The notes under the pieces are model-generated. The model made no database searches, was not told where the DNA came from, and worked only from the letters and a program-made list of their open reading frames with translations. Source: Lautropia sp. SCN 69-89 (lineage in GTDB: Bacteria; Pseudomonadota; Gammaproteobacteria; Burkholderiales; Burkholderiaceae_E). Taken from it: 64,000 bases of DNA. Position numbers and translations under genes: made by a program. Where the stretch lies: contig MEED01000020.1 of NCBI GenBank assembly GCA_001724855.1, positions 1-64,000 of the forward strand, read 5' to 3'. Shown piece after piece: positions 9,400-12,517 of the stretch (its first letter is position 1; every line of letters begins with the position of its first letter).

Positions 9400-10743
9400 T
9401 CAGCCAGCCGGACGCCGCATCGTGCAGGAATGCGGCCGGGCCGAGGACTGCAGGTCGACGAAGCGCTCGGTGCGAAAACCGAAGCCGCTGCCTTCGAGAT
9501 CGTACTTCGGCGCGCCTTCGCCGGCCTGCGGCCCGGCCCGCTCCATCACAGACACGTACAGCGGCGTCAGCAACTGGTGATCTGCGGCCCGCATCGTCGC
9601 CGCGTACGGCGGCCCGCGGTGGGTCCGTCCCTCGAGCTGGCGCGCCACGAGCGCGGCCTCGGTGCTGCCGGCCGCCTCGATCGCCGCCGCCAGCATGTCG
9701 ATCATCACCACGTGGCGCATGTTGAAGTAGTCGTCGCGCGGATCGCGCAGCCGCTGGCGAAACTCGAGATAGATCCGCTCGGCGGCGGGAACGCCGGCGT
9801 TCGGGTGCCACTCCGCGACCGCGCGCACGCGGCCCACGCCCGCCTCGCCGATCGCCGCCGGGGCGCCCAGTCCGTTGCCGTAGAAGGTATAGAAATCGGC
9901 CGCCAGCCCTACCTCGCGCGCCGCGCGCACCAGGAAAGTGAGGTCGTTGCCCCAGTTGCCGGTGACCACCGTGTCGGCGCCGGCCGCCTTGATCTTGGCG
10001 GCATAGGGCACGAAGTCCTTGATCCGGCCGAGCGGATGCAGCTCGTCGCCCACGATCTCGATGTCGGGGCGCCTGGCGGCGATCATCTGCCGCGCCAGCG
10101 TCGCCACCTGCTTGCCGAAGCTGTAGTCCTGGTTCAGCAGGTAGACGCGGCGCACGCGCCGGTTCTGCGCCAGCGCGTCGGCCAGGGCGCTCATGCGCAT
10201 TCCCGCATGGGCGTCGAAGCGGAAGTGCCAGAAGCTGCAACGCTCGTCGGTGAGCGACGGATCGACCGCCGAATAGTTCAGGAACAGCAGCCGCTTGGCC
10301 GGCTCGCGCTCGTTGTGCGCCGACACGGCGTCGATCAGCGCCGCCGCGACCGCCGAGCTGTTGCCCTGCAGGACGAACGGAATGTGCTGGTCGGTGGCCT
10401 TGCGCAGCATCGCGATCGCCTCTTCGACCTGGCCCAGGCTGTCGAGCCGCACCAGCTGCAGCGGGCGCGGCTGGCCGCCGACGCGCACGCCGCCGCGCGC
10501 GTTCACCCGGTCGACTGCGAACGCGAGATTGCGCCAGACCGAGTCGCCGGCGTTCGCGAAGGCGCCGGAGAAACCCTCGATGACCGCCAGCCGGATCGGC
10601 TCGCCCGAAGCCTGTGCGCCTGCCGCCCCGGCCTGCGCACCCGGCGCCCTGGTCTGCGCAGCGGCCGCCCCGGCGGGCACGGCCGCCAGCAGGGCCGAAG
10701 CGCCCATCGCGGCGGACAGGCGGCGGCGCAACGCGCGCCGCAT
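9400..10743 (-). CDS. Branched-chain amino acid-type ABC transporter substrate-binding protein (LivK-like)
   Basis: 447-aa periplasmic binding protein of peptide-binding fold type I. The N-terminus is basic and followed by a long Ala-rich hydrophobic signal (residues 1-29, AAAA-Q cleavage region). The mature part shows LivK-like features ([52 protein letters not shown]). The ligand cannot be read from sequence; amino acid or aromatic acid are typical. It is downstream of leuA and the start codon shares one base with the leuA stop (TGATG), so translation is probably coupled. No LivHMGF permease or ATPase genes are adjacent, so it is an orphan binding protein. Confidence 0.85.
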
Positions 10744-12290
10744 CAGACGCCTGCCTGCGGGTTGAGCCGATCGGCCCTCGAATGCAGCTTGTTCAGCGCG
10801 TTCAGGTAAGCCTTGGCCGATGCAACCACGATGTCCGGATCTGCGCCCACGCCGTTGACGACCCGGCCGGATTTCGCCAGCCGCACCGTGACCTCGCCCT
10901 GCGACTCGGTGCCGGTGGTGATCGCGTTCACCGAGTACAGCATCAGCTCGGCGCCGCTGCCGACCTTCGCCTCGATTGCCTTGAAGGTGGCGTCGACCGG
11001 CCCGTTGCCTTCGCTCTCGCTGGTCTGCTCGCTGCCGTCGACGGTGATCGTCACCCGCGAATGCGGACGTTCGCCGGTTTCGGAAGCCTGCGCCATCGAC
11101 ACGAGCTGGTAGTGCTCGTCGGCCTCGTGGTGCACCGCCTGGTCGGATACCAGCGCGTGGATGTCCTCGTCGAAGATCTCCGCCTTGCGGTCGGCAAGAT
11201 CCTTGAAGCGCTGGAACGCCGCGTTGACCTCCTGTTCGGAATCGAGCTCGATGCCCAGTTCCTGCAGACGCTGCTTGAACGCGTTGCGGCCCGAGAGCTT
11301 GCCCAGGACGATCTTGTTGGCGGTCCAGCCCACGTCTTCGGCGCGCATGATCTCGTAGGTGTCACGCTGCTTGAGCACGCCGTCCTGGTGGATGCCCGAC
11401 GCATGGGCGAACGCGTTGGCGCCCACCACCGCCTTGTTCGGCTGCACCGGGAAGCCGGTGATGCTGGAGACGAGCTTGGAGGCCGGCACGATCTGCGTGG
11501 TATCGACGCCCACCTCGAGGTCGAAGTAGTCGCGGCGGGTCTTCACCGCCATCACGATCTCCTCGAGCGAAGTGTTGCCCGCGCGCTCGCCCAGGCCGTT
11601 GACCGTGCACTCGACCTGCCGCGCCCCGCCGATCTTCACCGCGGCCAGCGAATTGGCCACCGCCATGCCCAGGTCGTTGTGGCAGTGCACCGACCAGATT
11701 GCCTTGCCCGAGTTCGGGATCCGCTCACGAAGCCTGCGGATCTGGTTGCCGAACATCTCGGGCACCGCGTAACCGACCGTGTCGGGGATGTTGATCGTGG
11801 TGGCGCCTTCGGCGATCGCGGCTTCGAGCACGCGGCACAGGAAGTCGGCGTCGGAGCGGCTGGCGTCCTCGGGCGAGAACTCGACGTTGTCGGTGAACTT
11901 GCGCGCGAAGCGTACGGCCAGGCGCACCTGCTCGTACACCTGCTCGGGCGTCATGCGCAGCTTCTTTTCCATGTGCAGCGCCGAAGTCGCCATGAAGGTG
12001 TGGATGCGCATCGACTTCGCGCCCTTCAGGGCTTCGGCGGCCCGGGAGATGTCGCGGTCGTTGGCGCGGGCGAGCGAACAGACGGTGGAGTCCTTGATCG
12101 CGTCGGCGATGGCGCGCACCGCCTCGAAGTCGCCATTGGAGGACGCCGCGAAACCAGCCTCGATCACGTCGACCCGCAGCTTCTCGAGCTGCTTGGCGAT
12201 GCGCAGTTTCTCCTCGCGGGTCATCGAGGCACCCGGGCTCTGCTCGCCGTCACGCAAGGTGGTGTCGAAGATGATCAGCTTGTCGGCCAT
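10743..12290 (-). CDS. leuA: 2-isopropylmalate synthase
   Basis: First committed step of leucine synthesis: condenses acetyl-CoA with 2-oxoisovalerate in the cytoplasm. The N-terminal TIM barrel starts with the signature [16 protein letters not shown], followed by [14 protein letters not shown] and the [13 protein letters not shown] motif; the C-terminal regulatory domain (about residues 390-515) binds leucine for feedback inhibition. 515 aa, the long form. The ATG at 12290 has GGAG seven bases upstream. It is preceded by a leucine-rich leader peptide gene and a C-rich leader, so control by leucine supply is likely. The LivK-like gene is coupled at its 3' end. Confidence 0.97.
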
Positions 12291-12368
12291 GTGAATACTC
12301 CGGTGGTGCCGGTCCCGCTCGTGGCGGGAGGCAAGAAGGACTGCGACGGTAGTGGGGGGTAGGGGGTG
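12291..12368 (-). promoter_or_regulatory. leuA leader RNA (candidate attenuator region)
   Basis: 78 nt between the leader peptide stop and leuA. The first 47 nt are strikingly C-rich and G-poor (5 G), the composition Rho factor prefers. Then come a 6-bp hairpin (TCCCGC-GCGGGA, 12313-12329) and a CCGG-CCGG pairing whose 3' arm touches the leuA Shine-Dalgarno sequence. No T-run follows, so control would be Rho-dependent or translational, not a classical intrinsic attenuator. Function is inferred. Confidence 0.45.
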
Positions 12369-12482
12369 TCAGCGCGCGGGGCGCAGTAGCGGACCGAGCA
12401 CCGCGAGCAGGTGCAGGCCGCCGCGCGACCGGGAGAGGGTCGCGGCAAGAGGCGTGAATCGAGGACCGAAGCGCAATGCCAT
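12369..12482 (-). CDS. Putative leaderless leuA leader peptide
   Basis: 37-codon frame directly upstream of leu[21 protein letters not shown], then a segment with six Leu in the last 15 residues (Leu at 23, 25, 26, 29, 32, 33; one is the rare CTA codon). Nine Leu in total. A promoter with perfect spacing places the transcription start at the A of the ATG, so the message would be leaderless, and no Shine-Dalgarno is present. Leader peptides rich in the end-product amino acid are known regulators of amino acid operons (leu, ilv, trp); the assignment here is inference from position, composition and promoter. Confidence 0.6.
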
Positions 12483-12488
12483 CGGAAA

Positions 12489-12517
12489 AATATAGCGGCT
12501 TTGTGCAGCGCACGCAA
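12489..12517 (-). promoter_or_regulatory. Promoter of the leuA leader-leuA transcript
   Basis: Minus-strand -35 TTGCGT (12512-12517), exactly 17 bp spacer, -10 TATATT (12489-12494). Predicted +1 is 12482, the first base of the leader peptide ATG. It lies between the dcd stop codon (12530) and the leader gene. Confidence 0.7.

Follow-up and report, generated by a model that had tools for sequence, protein, structure and literature searches.

The leuA gene of Lautropia sp. SCN 69-89, whose product commits carbon to leucine, is preceded by a short leucine-rich frame that, judging from the comparison of related genomes, is real, conserved and more widespread than the first-pass annotation of this DNA could see. 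The frame probably belongs to a leucine-responsive, ribosome-mediated attenuator of leuA with a leaderless leader peptide. We base this proposal on the run of Leu codons, rather than Ile or Val codons, before leuA, on the conservation of the frame and its leaderless start, and on established knowledge of such leaders. The window, by which we mean the whole stretch of DNA analysed, comprises 64,000 nucleotides (contig MEED01000020.1, positions 1 to 64,000).

Layout of the leuA upstream region

Table 1. Features of the leuA upstream region in the window
Feature	Position	Strand	Remarks
End of dcd, dCTP deaminase	12530	(-)	TIGR02274; the leader region sits between dcd and leuA
-35 box TTGCGT	12512-12517	(-)	Read from the sequence; TTGCxx at 16-18 nt spacing in most listed leaders
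-10 box TATATT	12489-12494	(-)	17-nt spacer to the -35 box; 6 nt to the leader ATG
Leader frame, 37 codons plus TGA	12369-12482	(-)	Nine Leu; C-terminus GPLLRPAR; no Shine-Dalgarno sequence
Leader ATG	A at 12482	(-)	
Leader TGA	12371-12369	(-)	
Hairpin H2, GCGC-cccgc-GCGC	12372-12384	(-)	Spans last Leu codon to stop codon
C-rich, G-poor, unstructured tract	12334-12368	(-)	3′ of the stop; candidate Rho loading site
Hairpin H3, 10 bp	12307-12333	(-)	No U-run after it
leuA Shine-Dalgarno GGAG	12298-12301	(-)	Read from the sequence
leuA ATG	12290	(-)	
leuA, 2-isopropylmalate synthase	10743-12290	(-)	Regulated gene; TIGR00973, 705.9 bits (cut-off 598.7)

Since six bases separate the -10 box from the ATG (Table 1), the promoter geometry suggests that the leader transcript should begin on or beside the A of the leader ATG. 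The first-pass annotation had described this promoter and its spacing, a frame with six of its nine Leu codons among the last 15 and one CTA, and the absence of both a Shine-Dalgarno sequence and a T-run, and our own reading of the window agrees on each of these points. It had also described a C-rich, G-poor stretch of 47 nt past the stop codon; such a stretch is present, and conserved in the order, but it measures 35 nt (20 C and 3 G, counted on the sequence). Of the two short hairpins placed beyond it, the structure 3′ of the tract stands, but it is better read as a single hairpin, H3 (UGCCUCCCGC-cacga-GCGGGa(cc)GGCA; -15.8 kcal/mol, z -2.9), the 3′ end of which lies 5 nt upstream of the leuA GGAG. 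The second of the two, CCGG-cacca-CCGG, which had been said to touch the leuA ribosome site, overlaps the outer stem of H3 and is not conserved, being present in the sister genomes L002, L005 and L006 and absent from L003, L004, L007 and L008. The hairpin at the stop codon, H2, had been missed; in the window, its z score alone is -2.05. No U-run of the intrinsic-terminator type follows a hairpin in the leader region of the window. Directly downstream of leuA lies a frame at 9400-10743 (-), which gave no NCBIfam match at 1e-20 and presumably resembles an ABC-transporter protein that binds branched-chain amino acids.

Conservation of the leader in the order and the class

Using the window LeuA as query, matches were obtained in 96 of 101 genomes, and 70 upstream regions were examined, that of the window included. 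Aligned on one anchor, 49 of these 70 regions carried the leader, a count made after L034, L052, L058, L069 and the variant leader L049 had been removed by hand and L033 and L044 had been anchored by hand. We then defined a strict rule, which demanded an ATG, a -10 box matching at least five of six positions within 5-10 nt, a promoter matching at least 8 of 12, four or more Leu among the final 14 residues and a length of 15-55 codons. Within the order (L031-L070, one of them too short), 17 of 39 regions passed this rule, compared with 1 of 390 shuffles. Conservation among relatives thus indicates that the leader is more than chance; the loci are related by descent, and p-values overstate their independence. 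The frame, its Leu codons and its leaderless promoter, as the first-pass annotation had drawn them, are therefore kept upstream of leuA in relatives, while some close kin are without the leader: none was found before leuA in L011 and L014, of the genus of the window, or in L029, L031 and L032, of its family. In two of these, L011 and L032, the end of a dcd-like gene still lies just upstream of leuA.

A scan of named genomes with an exact pattern yielded at least 80 loci. Among the 80 matches listed, 58 precede LeuA, with 78-171 nt between the leader stop codon and the DTTLRDGEQ motif. Seven of the others were examined: L082, L107, L109 and L146 lie before a second type of leuA (TIGR00970/PRK03739 in L107), L075 and L103 run off the end of their stretch, and L115 is without leuA. 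Among the carriers whose leuA could be seen are Nitrosomonas europaea (L145), Nitrosospira multiformis (L102) and Aromatoleum (L076, L085, L135), and in Noviherbaspirillum (L107, L146) the leader stands before the second leuA type. When 300 genomes of the order were searched with a covariance model built from 45 sequences, 131 gave a match at a rough E value of 0.001 or below, among them the genome of the window, in which the leuA leader was the only place to match at that level. From the 142 model matches listed, 10 already belonged to the set found through leuA and 22 of the weakest were left out; a leader candidate preceded a leuA in 105 of the 110 that were examined, 86 of the first type and 19 of the second. 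One genome, G084 (C3), has a leader before both types (L062, at about 48.5 kb, and L305, at about 326 kb).

For a description of the leader itself, we pooled 169 leaders, leaving out L295, L300, L301, L302 and L304; because the pool includes loci found by the pattern or the model, its last codons are to some extent conserved by construction, and the key tests were repeated on loci found through leuA only. None of the 169 has a Shine-Dalgarno-like motif before the leader, 135 have TATATT or TATAGT as the -10 box, and in 130 this box lies 6-7 nt before the ATG, the start codons having been chosen partly by promoter score. In the sets found through leuA only, 28 of 40 order leaders and 24 of 59 class leaders have a -10 box that matches at least five of six positions and stands 6-7 nt from the ATG. 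A -10 box at this distance from the AUG, together with the lack of a Shine-Dalgarno sequence, is what a leaderless leader would be expected to show. Consistent with the leucine specificity put forward in the first-pass annotation, the last 14 residues contain on average 5.1 Leu, compared with 0.1 Ile and 0.3 Val (40 order leaders, found through leuA only). A short frame rich in codons for the product of the pathway thus lies directly before a biosynthetic gene, as in known attenuators. The 49 leaders aligned on one anchor vary in their amino-terminal part and in length but agree in promoter, leaderless start, Leu run and final codons. In the pool, the last residue is R in 138 of the 169 and the one preceding it A in 139, in a set partly chosen by that sequence. 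The Leu codon preceding the last CTG is CTA (12389-12387 in the window) in L001-L010, L012, L013, L015-L020 and L022; within the same family, L021, L023, L024 and L027 have CTG instead, as do most other families.

Outside the order, the order model gave five matches at E values of 1e-4 or below in 275 other genomes of the class. L306 and L307 lie before the second leuA type and L309 and L310 before the first; L308, L313, L315, L316 and L317 were rejected as leaders, these matches lying within coding sequence. In a draw of 299 genomes from the phylum, the only matches outside the order were L313, L315 and L316, again within coding sequence. Because the hairpin was changed in L309 and L310, upstream regions from the class were collected through LeuA instead of through the model. 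LeuA was found at E values of 1e-150 or below in 102 of 140 class genomes, and 89 of the 101 matches besides the window were examined, each from a different family as numbered in the genome set. A loose rule gave 66 candidates, seven of which (L334, L338, L360, L372, L394, L400, L405) were set aside by hand, leaving 59. The strict rule was passed by 33 of the 89 regions, by 2 of 890 shuffles and by none of 89 reverse complements, and 31 of the 33 strict leaders have a hairpin at the stop codon, as does one of the two shuffles that passed. Judged by the same promoter features, the class leaders look leaderless too. That the frame is a chance one without function, as might be thought given the many open frames in GC-rich DNA, is refuted by the conservation found in the order and class regions relative to shuffles and by the position of the model matches before leuA, and we attach practically no probability to it.

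Several further observations were made on the class leaders. Many of them end in LRLLP, LLLP or LRLPR. In 29 of the 59, among them L326, L341, L343, L352, L361, L365, L403 and L404, H2 is followed by the motif GCGAGG, mostly as CCUGGCGAGG, and then by A-rich bases and ACGC. A loop GCG and a downstream CGC could form a small pseudoknot in class leaders, and L382 has GACG with CGUC at these places. Searches against Rfam 15 with the window, nine order loci and 13 class loci gave no match at the gathering score of any family.

Hairpins and tract around the leader stop codon

The most conserved part of the leader is H2, a hairpin formed by the final codons that extends to the stop codon or includes it. 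In a folding profile of 90 leaders, the last codons had a mean z of -1.6 (66% below -1.5), the first 26 nt 3′ of the stop were open, and the stretch 30-56 nt past the stop had a mean z of -1.9 (58% below -1.5); these 90 leaders were partly found by pattern, and conservation of their last codons is to that extent built in. H2 reads GCGC-nnn-GCGC in most of the order. In a number of variants, the stem is kept while the peptide changes: UGCGC-GCAA-GCGCA encodes RASAN, UGCGCG-UUCG-CGCGCA encodes RVRAH, CUGCGC-cccgc-GCGCAG encodes RPARR, and GCGCC-nnn-GGCGC encodes RRRR or RPGR, so that the tetraloops GCAA and UUCG both occur. In the class, the stems are CUGCC/GGCAG, UGCCC/GGGCA or GCCGC/GCGGC, and the loop often contains the stop codon.

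We compared these folds with synonymous recodings whose third-position GC matched that of the adjacent open frame, using only leaders found through leuA. In the order, the last eight codons folded at -8.9 kcal/mol, versus -5.8 kcal/mol for the recodings (n = 40, Wilcoxon 1e-11); in the class, the stretch from the last eight codons to 12 nt past the stop folded at -11.9 versus -8.4 kcal/mol (n = 59, Wilcoxon 1e-10). The effect is modest in single leaders (median p 0.13 in the order and 0.12 in the class) and significant over the sets. Covariation counting on a MAFFT alignment was rejected for H3, as stems were misplaced between subclades, and hairpin halves were therefore swapped between leaders. 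Exchanging the halves of H2 weakened the fold from -9.87 to -8.07 in the class and from -8.54 to -7.11 over all leaders, with hardly any effect within the order (-8.07 to -7.85); in the swap tests of both H2 and H3, the hairpins had been preselected as the best ones, which favours their own halves.

Since the stem is kept and the fold exceeds its recodings while the amino acids change, conservation at the end of the peptide appears to owe more to an RNA hairpin than to a signal in the peptide itself. This bears on the idea that the C-terminus (LLRPAR, LLRLAR) is an arrest peptide, which itself stalls the ribosome on leucine or another signal. The terminal R-x-A-R is strongly conserved in the order, albeit in a 169-leader set partly chosen by that sequence, but in the class the end varies (LRLLP or LRLPR) while the RNA stem persists, and we regard arrest by the peptide as very improbable. 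In the H2 variants, the 5′ arm starts in or beside the Leu codon at the end of the run, and by this geometry a ribosome held at that codon would necessarily keep H2 open. The hairpin at the stop codon is the new part of the system, and it may also act in its own right. Another hairpin, H1, which precedes the Leu run, was weak (mean z -0.67, 29% below -1.5) and was rejected as an RNA polymerase pause hairpin.

Past the stop codon, the first two ten-base bins of the 40 order leaders found through leuA have C fractions of 0.56 and 0.49 and G fractions of 0.03 and 0.08. A C-rich, G-poor, unstructured stretch past the leader, as in attenuators that use Rho, is thus found in the order only, and its strongly C-rich part spans only about 20-25 nt, less than is usual for a Rho site. 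Among class leaders from outside the order, the first 15 nt past H2 contain C at 0.33 and G at 0.21; because the tract is much weaker there, the output may differ. Taking medians over 153 leaders, H3 extends from 30 to 58 nt past the stop and has an energy of -13.2 kcal/mol; in the 40 order leaders found through leuA, the median start is 29.5 nt. Its sequence varies widely between leaders, and swapping its halves weakened the fold from -11.4 to -5.85, own halves being favoured by the choice of hairpin.

Neither hairpin qualifies as a general intrinsic terminator. U-runs follow H2 in 8 of 169 and 5 of 59 leaders, against backgrounds of 9.7% and 8.6%, and TTTT occurs within 9 nt of H3 in only 14 of 153, against a background of 4.7%; U-runs thus exceed background only modestly after H3 and not after H2, which counts against intrinsic termination as a general device. 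Convincing U-runs were seen after H3 in L201, L210, L216 and L229, all of one family, and after H2 in L062 and L386, so that in scattered lineages H2 or H3 appears as if turned into an intrinsic terminator. The variant L049 (G090) has a leaderless leader, MLMNFSLLTGLLLALSLKLGAGKA, before leuA, lacks the RxAR end and has a terminator-like hairpin with T6; judged by its sequence, this leader, also of the order, resembles a classical attenuator. One could therefore imagine classical attenuation with alternative antiterminator and terminator structures, in which H3 would act as an intrinsic terminator despite lacking a U-run. The stability and fixed place of H3, the U-runs in that one family and the appearance of L049 fit such a scheme, but most leaders have no U-run, no conserved antiterminator partner was seen by eye, and in the order a conserved mutual pairing of H2 and H3 is hardly possible because H2 is nearly invariant and H3 varies. 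We consider classical attenuation unlikely on these grounds, a hairpin with a U-run being found in few lineages only.

It is about equally improbable that control is translational, the leader RNA hiding the leuA ribosome-binding site at high leucine in the manner of the base stem that has been suggested for the LEU element of Actinobacteria. Apart from the closeness of H3 to the GGAG in the window, this idea draws on single-sequence folds, in which CUCC of the tract pairs with GGAG in many relatives. Pairing of the tract with the leuA Shine-Dalgarno sequence, promising in such folds, was rejected after controls: the complementarity was 8.68, versus 8.94-9.01 for permuted partners and 9.21 for shuffled tracts, and CUCC occurred in 34% of tracts versus 31% in the control (n = 153 for each). 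The Leu run fared no better, at 6.41 versus 6.44 permuted and 9.23 shuffled (n = 153). The leader segment lying 31-60 nt upstream of the last base of the stop codon, at 10.09, was slightly above its permuted partners (9.76, range 9.59-9.99 in 20 rounds) but not above its own shuffles (10.14; n = 153). Moreover, leuA lies farther away in other families, as the 78-171 nt from stop codon to LeuA motif indicate, and the hairpin that had been thought to touch the ribosome site is not conserved.

Proposed mechanism and relation to known leaders

The attenuator that we propose would act through the place of the ribosome on the leader. When leucyl-tRNA is scarce, the ribosome would stall on the Leu run; given the usual ribosome footprint, the leading edge of a ribosome stalled there would overlie H2 and come up to the edge of the tract. 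The stalled ribosome would hold H2 open and keep Rho away, and leuA would stay on. When leucine is plentiful, the ribosome would reach the stop codon and leave, H2 would fold and the tract would be free, allowing Rho to load and to end transcription upstream of leuA. The short terminated RNA would be trimmed back to H3, which could protect its 3′ end. The firmest of these steps is leucine sensing through translation of the leader, and premature transcription termination is the likely output, at which the U-runs after H3 (L201, L210, L216, L229) and H2 (L386, L062) and the terminator of L049 hint. Rho, as the putative terminating agent, is the least certain step. The first-pass annotation had named Rho or translation as the output; a G-poor, C-rich tract with a downstream hairpin suits Rho and does not show it, and pairing with the Shine-Dalgarno sequence, on the translational side, did not rise above controls. 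A stalled ribosome, moreover, would touch only the upstream edge of the tract and not cover it, so that exclusion of Rho by stalling is conjectural.

A more far-reaching form of the proposal is conceivable, although we advance it only tentatively and with less than even confidence. The stalled ribosome alone, without an antiterminator, would block the stop-codon hairpin and thereby Rho throughout the class, the foot of the hairpin being the last Leu codon. The same design would serve before two leuA types, the hairpin would have been kept by compensatory change across the Gammaproteobacteria (in the GTDB sense), and intrinsic terminators would have been added in a few lineages. If the proposed attenuation of leuA is right, many Gammaproteobacteria in that sense, Nitrosomonas and Aromatoleum included, control leuA by a leader missed by textbook rules, since it has no ribosome site, no general terminator and no antiterminator that could be seen. 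Such a leader would also provide a simple, testable case in which transcription is decided by where a single ribosome stands on a leaderless message, together with a defined hairpin at a stop codon, and it would help in the annotation of small leaderless frames, a class that gene finders often skip.

Several known systems share parts of this layout. The comparative study of Vitreschak et al. (2004) is said to be the main one on such attenuators. In E. coli tnaC, leader translation decides the access of Rho next to the leader stop codon; there, free tryptophan arrests the ribosome at the stop and a catabolic operon is turned on, whereas here the ribosome would stall at Leu codons. The leu leaders of enteric bacteria have a normal 5′ UTR. 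According to the accessible parts of the sources, they and those of Shewanella resemble the present leaders in having a leucine-containing leader peptide before leuA (PMC6123439, PMC2659441), and a classical leuA attenuator with terminator and antiterminator structures has been proposed for Shewanella (PMC2659441); by contrast, the present leaders have no general U-run. In Epsilonproteobacteria, LeuL leaders are described, and were predicted in relatives by their ribosome site, in the accessible text of PMC3847290. A leuA leader was not found in the accessible portions of PMC2965389, PMC7822408 or PMC2864571, and a search of the open literature showed, among the results listed, neither a leuA leader described from Betaproteobacteria nor a stop-codon hairpin of the H2 type.

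Leaderless leaders are known from other pathways and phyla. The transcript of Sinorhizobium meliloti trpL (rnTrpL) likewise starts at the leader AUG, but it senses tryptophan and yields an attenuator RNA with roles in trans, as far as the accessible text of PMC7298713 and PMC10117765 goes. Mycobacterial polycysteine short frames are also leaders with a run of one amino acid, for which Rho was suggested because terminators are lacking, in the part of PMC1262725 that is accessible. They differ in belonging to cysteine operons and to another phylum. Going by the title of Canestrari 2020, these frames are reportedly leaderless. Another likeness, not named in the first-pass annotation, is to the actinobacterial LEU element (LeuL1 of Streptomyces lividans). 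In the accessible text of PMC8079986 and PMC1262725, actinobacterial leuA leaders are already described as leaderless and without a typical intrinsic terminator, the LEU element being a leucine-rich leaderless frame before leuA, with a proposed pseudoknot and with Leu codons that pair with the leuA Shine-Dalgarno sequence. Pairing of the latter kind is not above controls in the 153 leaders tested here, and the present leaders are set apart by H2 at the stop codon, by their C-rich tract and by H3.
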